Below are positions 28,159 to 34,593 of a stretch of DNA of 64,000 nucleotides, one piece after another. The stretch spans positions 1 to 64,000 of the forward strand of contig NZ_LRTV01000010.1 of the NCBI RefSeq assembly GCF_003408845.1, read 5' to 3'. The notes below the pieces were generated by a model that was given only the letters and a program-made list of their open reading frames with translations, ran no database searches and was not told the DNA's origin. This stretch comes from Gardnerella massiliensis. GTDB taxonomy: Bacteria > Actinomycetota > Actinomycetes > Actinomycetales > Bifidobacteriaceae. Positions within the stretch are counted from its first letter, which is position 1; each line of letters opens with the position of its first letter. A program made the position numbers and the translations under genes.

Positions 28159-28187
28159 TTAGAAGTTACTTTTTTTTTGGAAGTAAT

Positions 28188-29571: not shown

Positions 29572-32130
29572 ATGATAAATCGCTGTTTTGCGTTCGTACC
29601 AGGTATTAAGCACTTAGTTGCTTTAAGGGCGACGTGTCTTGCGATTTCTTCTCTTATGAACATCGCGTTTGTGTACATTTGCGTAGGCATGCTTTCGCCG
29701 GTGTTGCGACCAGTGCGCTCGGTAGGAACTTCGTTGATGAATTCGGTGGAATTTACCTCCTACATCATTGCCTTAGTAGCTGTTATTGTGTTTAAGTACG
29801 CGGCTTTTCATACTTCATGTACCATTGCGACCGATATTGAGTCGCGTGTGGCTATGCGATTGCGGCCTAAGATGTTGCACGCTTTGCTGTCCTTGCGTTC
29901 TGCGGGAATTGAAGAACCTCAAGAGCTTGCTTCGCTTTCTGTTAACGATGATATTAATGCGTTGCAACGTTTTATTGGCGTACTTGTGCCGCAGATTGTA
30001 GCTTCTGTGCCTATTCCGGTGGTTATTGCAGCCGTGCTGTTTACTGTTAATCCGTTGATTGCTGGAATTTGTGCAGTTTCTTCTATATTTAGTGTTATTT
30101 CGTTACTGTTGGTGCTGCTGTTACGTTCGGTTGTATGGCGTTGTGTCAGCGCGTGGTGCGCATACGCCATATCTTGTGTGGCTATTGTGGCTACGGTTTG
30201 GTTGTCTTCGGTAAAAGGCGTTGGGCTTGCTGCAGCGTTGTTAACTATGCCACTGCTTATGTTGAGCGTGCAGCCGATTCGAGAAGTTGGTAAGCACCTC
30301 CACGTCGTTCAGCATGCGGTTCACGGCATGCACCATGTTGAGTCGTTGCTGCAGACGGTGAGCGCATCGTCGGCACCAATATCCTTTAGTGATGATGGCG
30401 CTACGCTCTCTCTGCCGGATGGTGCTACGGATATTGCGCTACGAATGCGTTGCGATATTGCGGATGAGCATGCTGGTAAAGACAATGAGAGACTGCGCAT
30501 ATCAATGATTGCGCGTTCTGGTGAGTTGCAGATAGTTCCAAGTCAGTATCAGTCAGTAATGCGCATAAATATTCTTTCCGGATGTGGATTTAATAAGACC
30601 GCTGATGTGCTGCTTTCTTATAACGATCGTTACGGAGTACACGAGGACGATATTGCTCCTTTTGTTGTGTCGGACGCTTTCGACGCAACTGAACACTCAT
30701 CTTATCTGACTCTTCACGACGCAACTGTGGGGGCATTGGCGGATGTCGTTACTGTAGTGAGTGAAAGAAGCCACTTATTTGCAACTACGCTGCGTGAAAA
30801 CCTGCTACTTGCGTCTCCTACGGCTACTACTACCGCAATGTGGGATGCGTTGAGAGCGGCTCGCGTAGATGGCGTTGTGTACGCAGATTATGACGGTTTA
30901 GATATGCCAATTGACCGTCTGCTTCACAATCCTGACGCGACGTACAATGCTGAAGATATTGCTCGCCGTATTATTCTTGCAAGAGCCTTACTTCGTCACA
31001 CTCCCGTCTACATTTTCGATTACGCTGCGCAAACAATAAGTGAGTCTGAAGCTGCAGTGCTTACTCGAGTTTTGAGACGTTTAGCGCGTTCGGCAACGGT
31101 TATTGCATTAATGCCGAATGATGTCGGAGTTGATTCTCATGATGCGAGGATTACAGTAGAAGCGTATAAGCGTATTGCTCACGAAACTATGCGAGGTACT
31201 ACAGCAGCCAAGGAATCTGTTTCTGAAGTTGTTCAACGGGATGGCAGTCGAGTACCTGCTGAAAAAATGTTAGCTTCTGCGCGCGTTGAACGCCCTGTAA
31301 GTGCTATGGCAACGGTAGTTGCTTCTACTTCCCAAGAGCACACTGTTTCGCGTCTCAAACGTGCGTTTTTTGCCATTATCTCTATGGTGGTAACCGCAAT
31401 TAGTGTTGCTGCAACCGTATGTATTCCAGTAGCTATGGTGGCTGCAATGTTTGCCGTTGCCGGAAGACCTATTTTTGGTTTTGTTATGCAACAATGTGTA
31501 CTGGTTGCAGTGGCTTGCATGTTCGTTCGTGCTTTTACGCTGGTACTGTTGTTTGCTGGGGTCGATATGCACCACGAGCATTTGCATAAAGCCCACATAA
31601 GTATGAATGTTGGCATGGTTTGTGCAGTTTTGCCATTACTGGTGGTGCTGTACTTCCTGGATGTTGATTTGTCGTATGTTGCAATAGTTTCTTGCGTACT
31701 TTTGGTGTTTGTGCTTCCTCGTTACCTTCTTATGCGATCGCGGCATATTGTGCAAAAAGTTCGCGTTGAACAGCATGAGGTCGAGTGTGAAGTAAGTGAT
31801 ATCGAGCTTGGAATTGATGAGGTACTTGCCTTCCGACAAGGTGAACATTGCGTAAAACACATGGTTGCTTCCATGAAGAAAGTGTCACAGCAGAATATGC
31901 GATTGTCGCGTAAAATTGGCGGAATCTCAGCCTTCGTGCTGGTGTTGTCATTGGTGAGTATTGCTACTTCGGCATTGTTGGTTGCTCATACTATTCATCC
32001 AGTGCCGACGAATATTCCTGCTTGGAATACGGTGTATGCTGTTATGGCCATGGTGCTGTTGGTGAGTATGATTCAGCAGGTATCCGGTGTGGTGTTGCAG
32101 CGCATACCTTCTATGGTGAAGGTTAAGTGA
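29572..32130 (+). CDS. Degenerate ABC exporter-like membrane protein (no Walker A)
   Basis: 852 aa laid out as membrane domain (about 1-250), a central soluble stretch (about 265-555), and a second membrane domain (about 590-850). The centre still shows traces of an exporter ATPase: SERSHLFATTLRENLLLA (Q-loop area), then IILARALLRHTPVYIFDYAAQTIS where LSGGQ-x-ARALL-x-ILDEATSALD is expected. There is no GxxGxGKS/T Walker A, no LSGG signature, and Asp-Tyr replaces the catalytic Asp-Glu, so ATP hydrolysis is unlikely. A second ATPase domain is missing. The frame is open throughout with a good ribosome site (CAGGAG), so the protein may still be made. The layout recalls CydDC-like fused exporters. 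Confidence 0.7.
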   Translation: MINRCFAFVPGIKHLVALRATCLAISSLMNIAFVYICVGMLSPVLRPVRSVGTSLMNSVEFTSYIIALVAVIVFKYAAFHTSCTIATDIESRVAMRLRPKMLHALLSLRSAGIEEPQELASLSVNDDINALQRFIGVLVPQIVASVPIPVVIAAVLFTVNPLIAGICAVSSIFSVISLLLVLLLRSVVWRCVSAWCAYAISCVAIVATVWLSSVKGVGLAAALLTMPLLMLSVQPIREVGKHLHVVQHAVHGMHHVESLLQTVSASSAPISFSDDGATLSLPDGATDIALRMRCDIADEHAGKDNERLRISMIARSGELQIVPSQYQSVMRINILSGCGFNKTADVLLSYNDRYGVHEDDIAPFVVSDAFDATEHSSYLTLHDATVGALADVVTVVSERSHLFATTLRENLLLASPTATTTAMWDALRAARVDGVVYADYDGLDMPIDRLLHNPDATYNAEDIARRIILARALLRHTPVYIFDYAAQTISESEAAVLTRVLRRLARSATVIALMPNDVGVDSHDARITVEAYKRIAHETMRGTTAAKESVSEVVQRDGSRVPAEKMLASARVERPVSAMATVVASTSQEHTVSRLKRAFFAIISMVVTAISVAATVCIPVAMVAAMFAVAGRPIFGFVMQQCVLVAVACMFVRAFTLVLLFAGVDMHHEHLHKAHISMNVGMVCAVLPLLVVLYFLDVDLSYVAIVSCVLLVFVLPRYLLMRSRHIVQKVRVEQHEVECEVSDIELGIDEVLAFRQGEHCVKHMVASMKKVSQQNMRLSRKIGGISAFVLVLSLVSIATSALLVAHTIHPVPTNIPAWNTVYAVMAMVLLVSMIQQVSGVVLQRIPSMVKVK

Positions 32131-32200
32131 TATTTGTTTAACAATGGTGAGCAAACGAAATTAAGCGGAAATGTTATTTACACGATACGTAGATTAGGTT

Positions 32201-32210
32201 GGGGGGGGGG
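32201..32210 (+). repeat. G10 homopolymer at the ribosome-binding site
   Basis: Ten G residues end 6 bases before the ATG at 32217, so the tract itself is the Shine-Dalgarno region. Such tracts are prone to slipped-strand length changes. Confidence 0.9.
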
Positions 32211-32216
32211 CTGAAT

Positions 32217-32984
32217 ATGCGTTATCGCTGTACCCGGTTGGGGCATAATCGAAGTAATCAGCGCGGAAGACGTCCGCATAATCGCAGTGTTGTTGCGCTA
32301 CTATGGCTTATTGCGTGCGCGGCTTTATGCGGGGTTATTATTGGTCTGCTACTTCCTAAAATCAACCATACGGCTGGCCAGATTACGGGAGAGTATGAGG
32401 CGAGCGGTGAGGCTGCTCGTATTTTGCAACATCTTAAAGTGGCTCGAGCACACCATGGCGGGTATGAGCGGCAAGTCTTTGGGTATCGTACTACTGACGA
32501 AGATGGCAACGGTTGTGATGTGAGAGAAGACGTATTAGCCCGAGATTTGAAGGATGTGCGATACAAGTATGCGGGATCCTGCCAGGTGAGTCTGGGGTTG
32601 TTACACGATCCTTATACGGGGCTTTTGATTCATTTTGTAAGGGGTCGTAAAACAAGTTCGCTAGTGCAAATTGATCACGTTGTTGCTTTACAAAACGCCT
32701 GGGAGTCGGGGGCTTGGAATTGGCGGCAAACTAAGCGTCTTAAATTTGGTAACGACATGCTTAATTTACTTGCTGTGCAGGGTGCTGCGAATCAAGAAAA
32801 AGGTTCCGCTTCAGCAGCATACTGGTTACCTTCAAACAAATCCTTTAGATGCGCGTATGTAGCTAGGCAGATTGCGGTGAAATATAAGTATGGTTTGTCG
32901 GTGACGCGCGAAGAAAAGCGAAGCATGGCTGCGGTTCTGCACGGCTGCAGAGCGCAAGCGTTACCTGATGAAGAAGCGCGGTAG
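32217..32984 (+). CDS. Secreted/membrane-anchored HNH nuclease (DUF1524/GmrSD C-terminal type)
   Basis: 255 aa. A basic N-terminus is followed by one hydrophobic segment (about 30-52), suggesting export or anchoring. The C-terminal nuclease core shows IDHVVALQNAWESGAW (His of the HNH fold), then FGNDMLNLLAV and NQEKGSASAAYWLPSN, the pattern of DUF1524 extracellular nucleases of actinobacteria. A likely role is cutting extracellular DNA for nutrition or competition; this is inference. A G10 tract overlaps its ribosome site, so expression may be phase-variable. An in-frame TTG (32199) would translate through the tract. Confidence 0.8.
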   Translation: MRYRCTRLGHNRSNQRGRRPHNRSVVALLWLIACAALCGVIIGLLLPKINHTAGQITGEYEASGEAARILQHLKVARAHHGGYERQVFGYRTTDEDGNGCDVREDVLARDLKDVRYKYAGSCQVSLGLLHDPYTGLLIHFVRGRKTSSLVQIDHVVALQNAWESGAWNWRQTKRLKFGNDMLNLLAVQGAANQEKGSASAAYWLPSNKSFRCAYVARQIAVKYKYGLSVTREEKRSMAAVLHGCRAQALPDEEAR

Positions 32985-32991
32985 CGTAAGA

Positions 32992-34593
32992 CTAATATTG
33001 ATGATGCGTGTGATCGTGCATAACGTCGTGATGCTCGGTTGCGTGTGGAATATGCAGTACCCGCATACGATCAATTGCTCTGCGGGCAAGATTATGCGCC
33101 GATCCAGTGCCTTCACCTTTTACTGCGACAATAACTAGTATTGCCATTACAGCGGTAATAAGCGCGCTGATGCGGAGCGTCCACTGTACGCCGAAAATAC
33201 TTGCTGCAACGTCTGCAGCGTGGCCTGAACCGGTGATGCTGTGGCGCCAAGTAGTGAGTACCGTCATGGTTACCACCAGCACTGGAGCACCTATAGCGCC
33301 CCATAACTGACGCATAGTATTGGTTACTGCGGAACCGTCACCAAGTTCGTCTTTGCGCAAGCAATTCAGCGACCAAGTGGTTATAGGCATCAGCAGAAAG
33401 CCCATGCCGATTTGACGCGTAAATTGCCAAATGGAAATCCACCAAATCCACGTATCCATATCGATAAGGCTCATCATTACTGTGCCAAACAGCAGGATAA
33501 TAGAGCCTGCCATAGCAACTGGTCGGACACCAAAACGATCGAGCATACGGCCGCCAAAATACTGGGAAATAGCCATGCCTAGCGCGCCCGGTAGCAGTAT
33601 CAGTCCGCTCATAGTGGCAGAAAAACCGCGATCAGACTGAATATACAACGGAATTAACACCATAATGGAACTGAACGCAAAAAACGTAAGGCAAGCGCAA
33701 ACTGTACCAACCATAAAGTAACGGTTCTTTAATACGCCCAAACCAAGCAGCGGAACTTTACCAAGTTTTTGATGACGGAGCTGACGAATCACGAACCAAG
33801 CGATACCAAAAGCACCAATCGTCATAGGTCCCCACGACAGTGGACTATTAATACCGCAGTCCTCAATATTGGTAAAACCAAACATTAATCCGCCAAAACC
33901 AATCACTGACAGTCCAACTGAGAAAAAGTCAGCATGTGCGTTAGGATCATGTTCGCCAAAGTTATGCAAGAATAATGTCGCTACAATAACGGAAATCACA
34001 CCGATAATAGTGAGCGAACAGAAAATAGAACGCCACCCGTTCATGTCGGTTTGTAAGCCGCCGATAGTAGGACCGATTGCCGGAGCAATACTCATAGCCA
34101 TACCGACACTGCCCATGGCCATGCCTCGTCGCGTCACCGGGTACACAGAAAATACAGTAATTTGTAGAACAGGCCACATTACGCCAGTGCCAATTGCTTC
34201 CAAAGTGCGTCCCAACAACGCCATCATAAAATCGCTACTCAACCAAGCCAAAACTGAGCCGAGCGTAAAAAGAACCATAGAAGTAATAACGATTTGGCGC
34301 GTAGAAAAACGTCTCGTAAGGAACGCCGTAAGCGGCACCATAATAGCCATAATCAGCTGAAAAATAGAAGTAAGCCATTGGCCGGTGGTGACGCTAATAC
34401 CAAATTCGTGAACGATAGTTGGCAGGGCAGCAGTGAGCTGAAGTTGCGCGAAATTGCCGATAAAGGTAATAAAAGTGAGAATAGCTAACGAAATAAGTGC
34501 AGGTCGTGTAAGTCGATTATTGCGATACGCTTCCTCTCCAGTCAGTGCGTGACTGAGATTATGACTGCTAGTAAGCCACGATACGTGTGTCAC
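32992..34593 (-). CDS. MFS multidrug exporter, DHA2 (EmrB/QacA-like) family
   Basis: 533-aa membrane protein with about 14 hydrophobic segments, as in the DHA2 group. Family features: the early TGQWLTSIFQLIMAIMVP segment (about residue 70) and motif C-like GPTIGGLQTDMNGWRSIF near 165. The GTG at 34593 is preferred because AAAGG lies 9-10 bases upstream; the ATG at 34602 directly abuts AAAGG. It is convergent with the HNH nuclease gene, 7 bp away. The substrate is unknown; the C-terminal tail is His-rich. Confidence 0.85.
   Translation of the reverse strand: MTHVSWLTSSHNLSHALTGEEAYRNNRLTRPALISLAILTFITFIGNFAQLQLTAALPTIVHEFGISVTTGQWLTSIFQLIMAIMVPLTAFLTRRFSTRQIVITSMVLFTLGSVLAWLSSDFMMALLGRTLEAIGTGVMWPVLQITVFSVYPVTRRGMAMGSVGMAMSIAPAIGPTIGGLQTDMNGWRSIFCSLTIIGVISVIVATLFLHNFGEHDPNAHADFFSVGLSVIGFGGLMFGFTNIEDCGINSPLSWGPMTIGAFGIAWFVIRQLRHQKLGKVPLLGLGVLKNRYFMVGTVCACLTFFAFSSIMVLIPLYIQSDRGFSATMSGLILLPGALGMAISQYFGGRMLDRFGVRPVAMAGSIILLFGTVMMSLIDMDTWIWWISIWQFTRQIGMGFLLMPITTWSLNCLRKDELGDGSAVTNTMRQLWGAIGAPVLVVTMTVLTTWRHSITGSGHAADVAASIFGVQWTLRISALITAVMAILVIVAVKGEGTGSAHNLARRAIDRMRVLHIPHATEHHDVMHDHTHHQY

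Follow-up and report, generated by a model that had tools for sequence, protein, structure and literature searches.

Does a homopolymeric tract that itself forms a ribosome-binding site make the gene behind it switchable? The question is raised by a stretch of Gardnerella massiliensis DNA of 64,000 nucleotides (hereinafter the window), located on contig C10 (one of 13) of a draft assembly totaling 1.62 Mb, in which ten G residues stand just before the start of a nuclease gene. The original prediction was that phase variation is likely at this locus. We instead favor, with moderate confidence, an account in which an inherited G5–6 Shine–Dalgarno (SD) has grown here into a slippery G10 tract that tunes translation of the nuclease slightly rather than turning it ON and OFF. 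The features on which the argument turns are:

29572..32130, + strand: gene for a CydC/CydD-like transporter of 852 aa (matches far below family cut-offs)
32184..32226, + strand: candidate leader hairpin (apical loop holding the tract, basal stem holding the ATG; RNAalifold, five genomes)
32199..32201, + strand: in-frame TTG, candidate alternative start (frame relation not conserved across leaders)
32201..32210, + strand: G10 homopolymer constituting the SD region (from the sequence; four sister leaders have G5–G6 at the equivalent place)
32211..32216, + strand: spacer CTGAAT between the G10 tract and the ATG (sister spacers have 7 bases, the first being A)
32217..32984, + strand: nuclease ORF of 255 aa with an intact frame (ATG at 32217, TAG at 32982–32984)

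A Shine–Dalgarno Region Formed by a Long G Tract

As originally described, the ten Gs end 6 bp before the ATG. The TTG at 32199 runs into the tract, its G being the first of the ten. That the tract is the SD region is borne out by this position and by GGATCACCTCCTTTCT, which occurs twice in the genome and is taken as the 16S 3′ end; since it carries the putative anti-SD CCTCC, the tract can pair with it. The tract is the sole G/C run longer than six in the window, where GGGGGGGG has three overlapping matches as against 0.18 expected in shuffles, with none of 100 shuffles reaching three. Its length is not due to chance and falls in the range of about eight or more that characterizes slippage-prone tracts. 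The G+C content is 47.7% for the window, 44.3% for the pooled loci of the same genome and 39.5–45.9% for the sister loci. Among the A/T runs of the window, the longest is a T9 at 28170–28178, 5′ of a gene for a LacI-type regulator (28252).

Across the genome, there are 28 G/C runs of exactly six, none of seven, one of eight, three of nine, nine of ten and six of eleven (overlapping counts on both strands: 124 for G6, 77 for G7, 58 for G8 and 39 for G9). The G10 tract of the nuclease leader is hence one of 19 runs of eight or more, 18 of them at 9–11; these form a distinct class, set off by the gap at seven and with its mode at 10–11. Six other Gardnerella genomes have 13–24 runs of seven or more each, with mean lengths of 8.9–10.5. 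As 13 of the 19 runs adjoin a contig end (7) or an N stretch (6), some of the latter possibly being masks rather than assembly gaps, the lengths of those 13 are minima; the nuclease-leader tract is read through, with no contig end or N beside it, and its length rests on the single draft assembly. Seven contig ends coincide exactly with G/C tracts of 9–11 (the ends of C2 and C4, both ends of C8, the end of C10 at 74994 and the starts of C11 and C13), and the draft assembly seems to be broken at its slippery tracts.

The slippage-prone class as such is already published for Gardnerella: the tract sections of Garcia et al. (2024; PMC11287997) report a median of 20 G/C tracts per genome across 91 Gardnerella genomes, about 70% of tracts lying upstream of a gene among the sequenced strains, and a length variation of 9 versus 10 established by Sanger sequencing for one gene with a GA module. 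By analogy with this class, slippage is likely at the nuclease tract too. The nuclease tract is a further case of a known kind, in an unusual position.

The Nuclease and Its Neighborhood

The product of the gene is probably a membrane-anchored, extracytoplasmic β-β-α-metal (HNH, GmrSD_C) nuclease. Its sole Pfam match above the respective cut-off is GmrSD_C (PF07510; E = 1e-19, 71.2 bits versus a cut-off of 23). A DH...N...N signature is the core motif of the GmrSD_C/HNH nuclease domain. We aligned the window protein with 25 of the 33 other translations, giving 26 sequences that range from Gardnerella to Glycomyces and include one Saccharibacteria genome (L039, L043, L048, L051, L054, L069, L073 and L082 were dropped for redundancy or over-long starts). 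In this alignment the catalytic candidates H154, N179 and N192 are the same in every row and D153 in nearly every one, which together with the Pfam match upholds the DUF1524-type HNH core that had been recognized from the sequence. Four cysteines of the C-terminal domain (C100, C122, C212 and C244) are likewise conserved.

The AF2 model (pLDDT 86.6) displays a single long N-terminal helix at residues 21–49, preceded by a basic N-terminus. Its hydrophobic sequence suggests that this helix is the one membrane segment claimed earlier: the single helix is there in the model, and its membrane nature would follow from hydrophobicity. As expected for an inside-to-outside anchor, a basic N-terminus, the helix and a cysteine-bearing C-terminal domain follow one another, which points to an extracytoplasmic location of the putative DNase. 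The best fold match of the model is Endonuclease I (VIA-align Z 10.3, rmsd 3.2 over 138 residues), as against a Z of about 5 for Cas9 HNH domains; the Foldseek E-value for the Endonuclease I match is weak at 0.04. A sequence search of the PDB returned a best E of 0.87, at chance level, for another protein, and NCBIfam holds no family matching the nuclease at E = 0.01. PADLOC, with the protein alone scanned, gave no match at E up to 1. We also considered a role in anti-phage defense or GmrSD type IV restriction and rejected it, there being no PADLOC match and no Pfam partner domain above its cut-off. A literature search combining DUF1524 with the present topic found no paper.

The nuclease gene is present in 60 of 61 genomes of the genus (E of 0.001 or better), the missing genome being 82% complete, and this distribution suggests a function that is core to the genus. 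Among the named relatives, the closest eight comprise six Gardnerella (PSS_7772B, greenwoodii 00703Dmash, swidsinskii GS 9838-1, 1500E, piotii UGent 18.01 and GED7760B) and the Bifidobacteriaceae bacteria NR021 and NR047. Relatives of the nuclease also occur in Saccharibacteria genomes (L071, L083, L084, L085 and L089; 40–59% identity over the best segment), and these sequence similarities may be a sign of exchange with hosts among the actinobacteria.

Upstream, the CydC/CydD-like protein gives no Pfam hit to an ABC ATPase domain at E-values up to 1 and is, going by its sequence, possibly a degenerate fused transporter. No terminator-like site is found in 32131–32216, and this gene and the nuclease are possibly co-transcribed as an operon. 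A promoter spacing switch was rejected: two sigma-70-like sites were found in 31900–33100 versus 1.8 expected, neither of them between the genes.

A Short Tract in the Sister Leaders and a Long One in a Single Lineage

We compared the locus in 12 Gardnerella genomes (G000, G009, G014, G022, G031, G044, G046, G075, G090, G109, G110 and G111), taking one genome per species, such that a difference of G10 versus G5–6 represents divergence between species and not strain variation. In five of the 12 the nuclease is preceded by an intergenic leader; in the other seven the nuclease start overlaps or almost meets the end of the upstream frame. While the tract is G10 in the window, it is G6 in PSS_7772B and G5 in swidsinskii, NR021 and NR047, with an A coming next in all four sisters (spacers ACTGAAC, ACTGAGC, ACTAAAT and AGTGAAT) and an ATGCGT start common to all five leaders. 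A G-run SD is thus shared by the five-leader group and the long tract is not, the latter being found in one of the five leaders and one of the 12 genomes. Since four sister leaders have G5–6 at that place, the long tract looks like a derived state.

We propose that a short G5–6 SD, common to one group of Gardnerella, would have expanded to G10 in the present lineage. As the sister spacers start with A, an A-to-G change at the 3′ edge of the tract probably joined the run; this change probably came first, with slippage then lengthening the run. The G10 length should gain and lose Gs within a population, and such changes would most likely tune translation a little by offering more upstream pairing registers and by altering the folding of the leader. 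We expect a small graded effect rather than an ON/OFF one because slippage moves only the 5′ edge of the tract, while the 3′ edge keeps its distance of six bases to the ATG.

The strongest competitor, to which we give a little less than an even chance, is neutral expansion, whereby above about seven Gs slippage drives runs to 10–11 and the SD tolerates them, resulting in variability without function. It overlaps with the account that we favor and differs on whether the variability matters. The empty seven-G class of the genome is as compatible with a mutational threshold as with selection, a G5 run also precedes the ATG of another ORF in the window, and the long tract is limited to one lineage, all of which speak for a neutral origin. 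Against it stands the fact that an SD is a functional site, which makes some effect on expression likely.

Other Tracts and the Case for a Switch

True ON/OFF phase variation, with tract length strongly switching translation of the nuclease, draws support from the company that the tract keeps, as several of the 19 tracts of the genome lie beside surface-protein genes. Among 18 proteins encoded beside the other tracts (leaving out the neighbors in L100 and L116), Pfam identifies surface-protein domains in seven (G5/DUF285, Rib types, FIVAR and pilin; one of them, L110, below its cut-off) and no family in three. The remaining eight are a GT2 glycosyltransferase, a GH31 enzyme, an ATPase, a DUF4037/TPR protein, MTHFR, a tRNA synthetase, a nucleotidyltransferase and NusG. 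Precedents exist in the passages on leader tracts for Mycobacterium tuberculosis espR, where a leader homopolymer controls translation (PMC11898584), and for Helicobacter pylori tlpB, where a leader G-repeat gradually controls expression via an sRNA (PMC8295292).

The pilin gene, taken as a control, offers the contrast that weighs against a switch. It was detected in 11 of the 12 Gardnerella genomes at E = 1e-60, the twelfth giving no match, and a G9–G11 tract lies about 250–330 bases upstream of it in the window's own genome and in eight of 10 other species, the remaining two having N there. At the pilin locus a long tract is hence kept at the orthologous place in related species, unlike at the nuclease leader. 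Moreover, slippage leaves the spacing of the tract's 3′ edge to the ATG unchanged and the reading frame of the main start unaffected. Of the original claim of phase variation, the slippage-prone length class, the SD position and the probably extracytoplasmic nuclease survive; the switch fares worse, given the long tract in a single leader and the fixed 3′ edge. We consider a simple ON/OFF switch unlikely, and rank it below both a graded and a neutral effect.

Tract position sets the nuclease leader apart. Of the eight tracts measured (L101, L103, L105, L106, L107, L109, L110 and L113), seven lie about 126–271 bases upstream of the respective gene, and the eighth, the C tract of the glycosyltransferase, ends 13 bases before its ATG. 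No second G tract forms the SD of a gene among the listed ORFs of 90 aa or more near tracts in this genome. The GT2 glycosyltransferase gene is found in three of the 12 genomes (E = 1e-60) at no less than 98% identity, with C11, C8 and C13 before the ATG (L148, L149 and L150; the C11 is a minimum, as N adjoins it). Here the tract length changes while the gene barely does, which is natural length variation within the tract class, and we regard this C tract as a strong candidate for variable expression near a ribosome-binding site.

A search across the genus, covering 112 genomes, for G8 or longer at SD distance from an ATG returned 220 loci versus 90 in a reversed control; in the 12 Gardnerella genomes the figures are 23 versus 14 (p = 0.09), and in the window's own genome 2 versus 2. 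The reverse-strand match in the latter is taken as the C2 end tract and opens only an 11-codon frame. In a sample of 30 such loci, one per genome, only seven lead into an ORF of at least 100 aa; two of these seven were searched against Pfam and both matched, one being LacI-type (L134) and the other FHA-type (L141). With G10 in L134 and G9 in L141 at SD distance, SD-embedded tracts recur in other genomes of the genus.

Ribosome Pairing, the TTG Start and the Leader Hairpin

Between the 20 bases before the ATG and the last 13 letters of GGATCACCTCCTTTCT, the predicted anti-SD pairing is −15.7 kcal/mol for the window and −9.0 to −12.2 kcal/mol for the sisters. These values speak for the account of slight tuning that we favor. 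Counting against it, the long tract, by its stronger predicted pairing, could itself raise or lower expression. A larger effect on expression is also possible because one extra G altered translation in the espR leader, as described for that tract in PMC11898584.

The proposal that slippage shifts the frame of an upstream TTG start did not hold up as the main mechanism, and we reject the TTG as a frame switch: it is in frame in only two of the five leaders (the window and PSS_7772B) and out of frame in swidsinskii and NR047, and NR021 has no TTG joined to the tract. Counting against this rejection, five to eight codons ahead of the ATG form a short frame that is open in all five leaders, because the SD and spacer read GGL-S/N-M or close to it.

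RNA hairpin control, with the tract as the loop of a start-codon hairpin that acts as a translational sensor or sRNA target and tract length as the tuner, appears quite improbable to us. RNAalifold yields one 14-pair hairpin across the five leaders, in which 91.4% of 70 cells are paired, as compared to 24–54% when slid, and two pairs are changed on both sides. On 43 nt the z-scores of the four sisters are −2.60, −3.49, −4.07 and −3.22. However, the window itself reaches only −1.65 on 43 nt and −0.14 on 90 nt (sisters −2.43, −1.31, −2.87 and −0.97), NR047 adopts a different register on 43 nt and a different fold on 90 nt, and shuffles equal the observed covariation in 36, the double changes in 72 and the percentage paired in 58 of 500 cases. 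Moreover, the structure was drawn from the same five sequences on which it was tested, two of which look closely related. As the covariation is not clearly beyond shuffles, the hairpin is suggestive, a lead and not a result. A further elaboration, in which the SD homopolymer in the hairpin loop would serve as a translational rheostat, each slip slightly resetting the amount of surface nuclease such that a clonal population holds a DNase gradient, is a long shot.

Should the lengths vary and change expression, a DNA-degrading surface enzyme would count among the functions that vary in this bacterium, whose biofilm is important in bacterial vaginosis, and translation would be tuned by an SD that consists of the slippery tract itself. 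Otherwise, the locus is a useful example of a G-rich SD turning into a slippery tract by drift.

Comparison with Known Systems

A search for literature combining phase variation with the ribosome-binding site or untranslated region found no paper covering all of these together. The nearest relatives of the nuclease tract are those of Gardnerella in PMC11287997, which are of the same genus and the same class of eight or more. These lie mostly upstream of genes, and no SD-embedded tract is described in the tract sections of that paper, whose main text contains neither "HNH" nor "nuclease". The pilus tracts of the related Bifidobacterium breve, as presented in the tract-related parts of PMC9187656, are comparable at G10–11 and have measured slippage, but they lie inside the coding frame and act ON/OFF by frameshift.

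Two leader tracts come closer in placement. According to the account of the repeat in PMC8295292, H. pylori tlpB has a variable G-repeat in its mRNA leader with a graded length effect, but acts through the RepG sRNA and has its ribosome binding site marked apart from the repeat. M. tuberculosis espR likewise has a leader tract in which one extra G alters translation, but, in the portion of PMC11898584 that maps it, the tract sits at the leader's 5′ end and apart from the predicted SD. With regard to the protein, the Endonuclease I (Vvn/EndA) family has the same extracytoplasmic nuclease fold by the structural match given above (VIA-align Z 10.3), from which the window protein differs by its low identity (12–17% over the best six rows) and by its added N-terminal helix.
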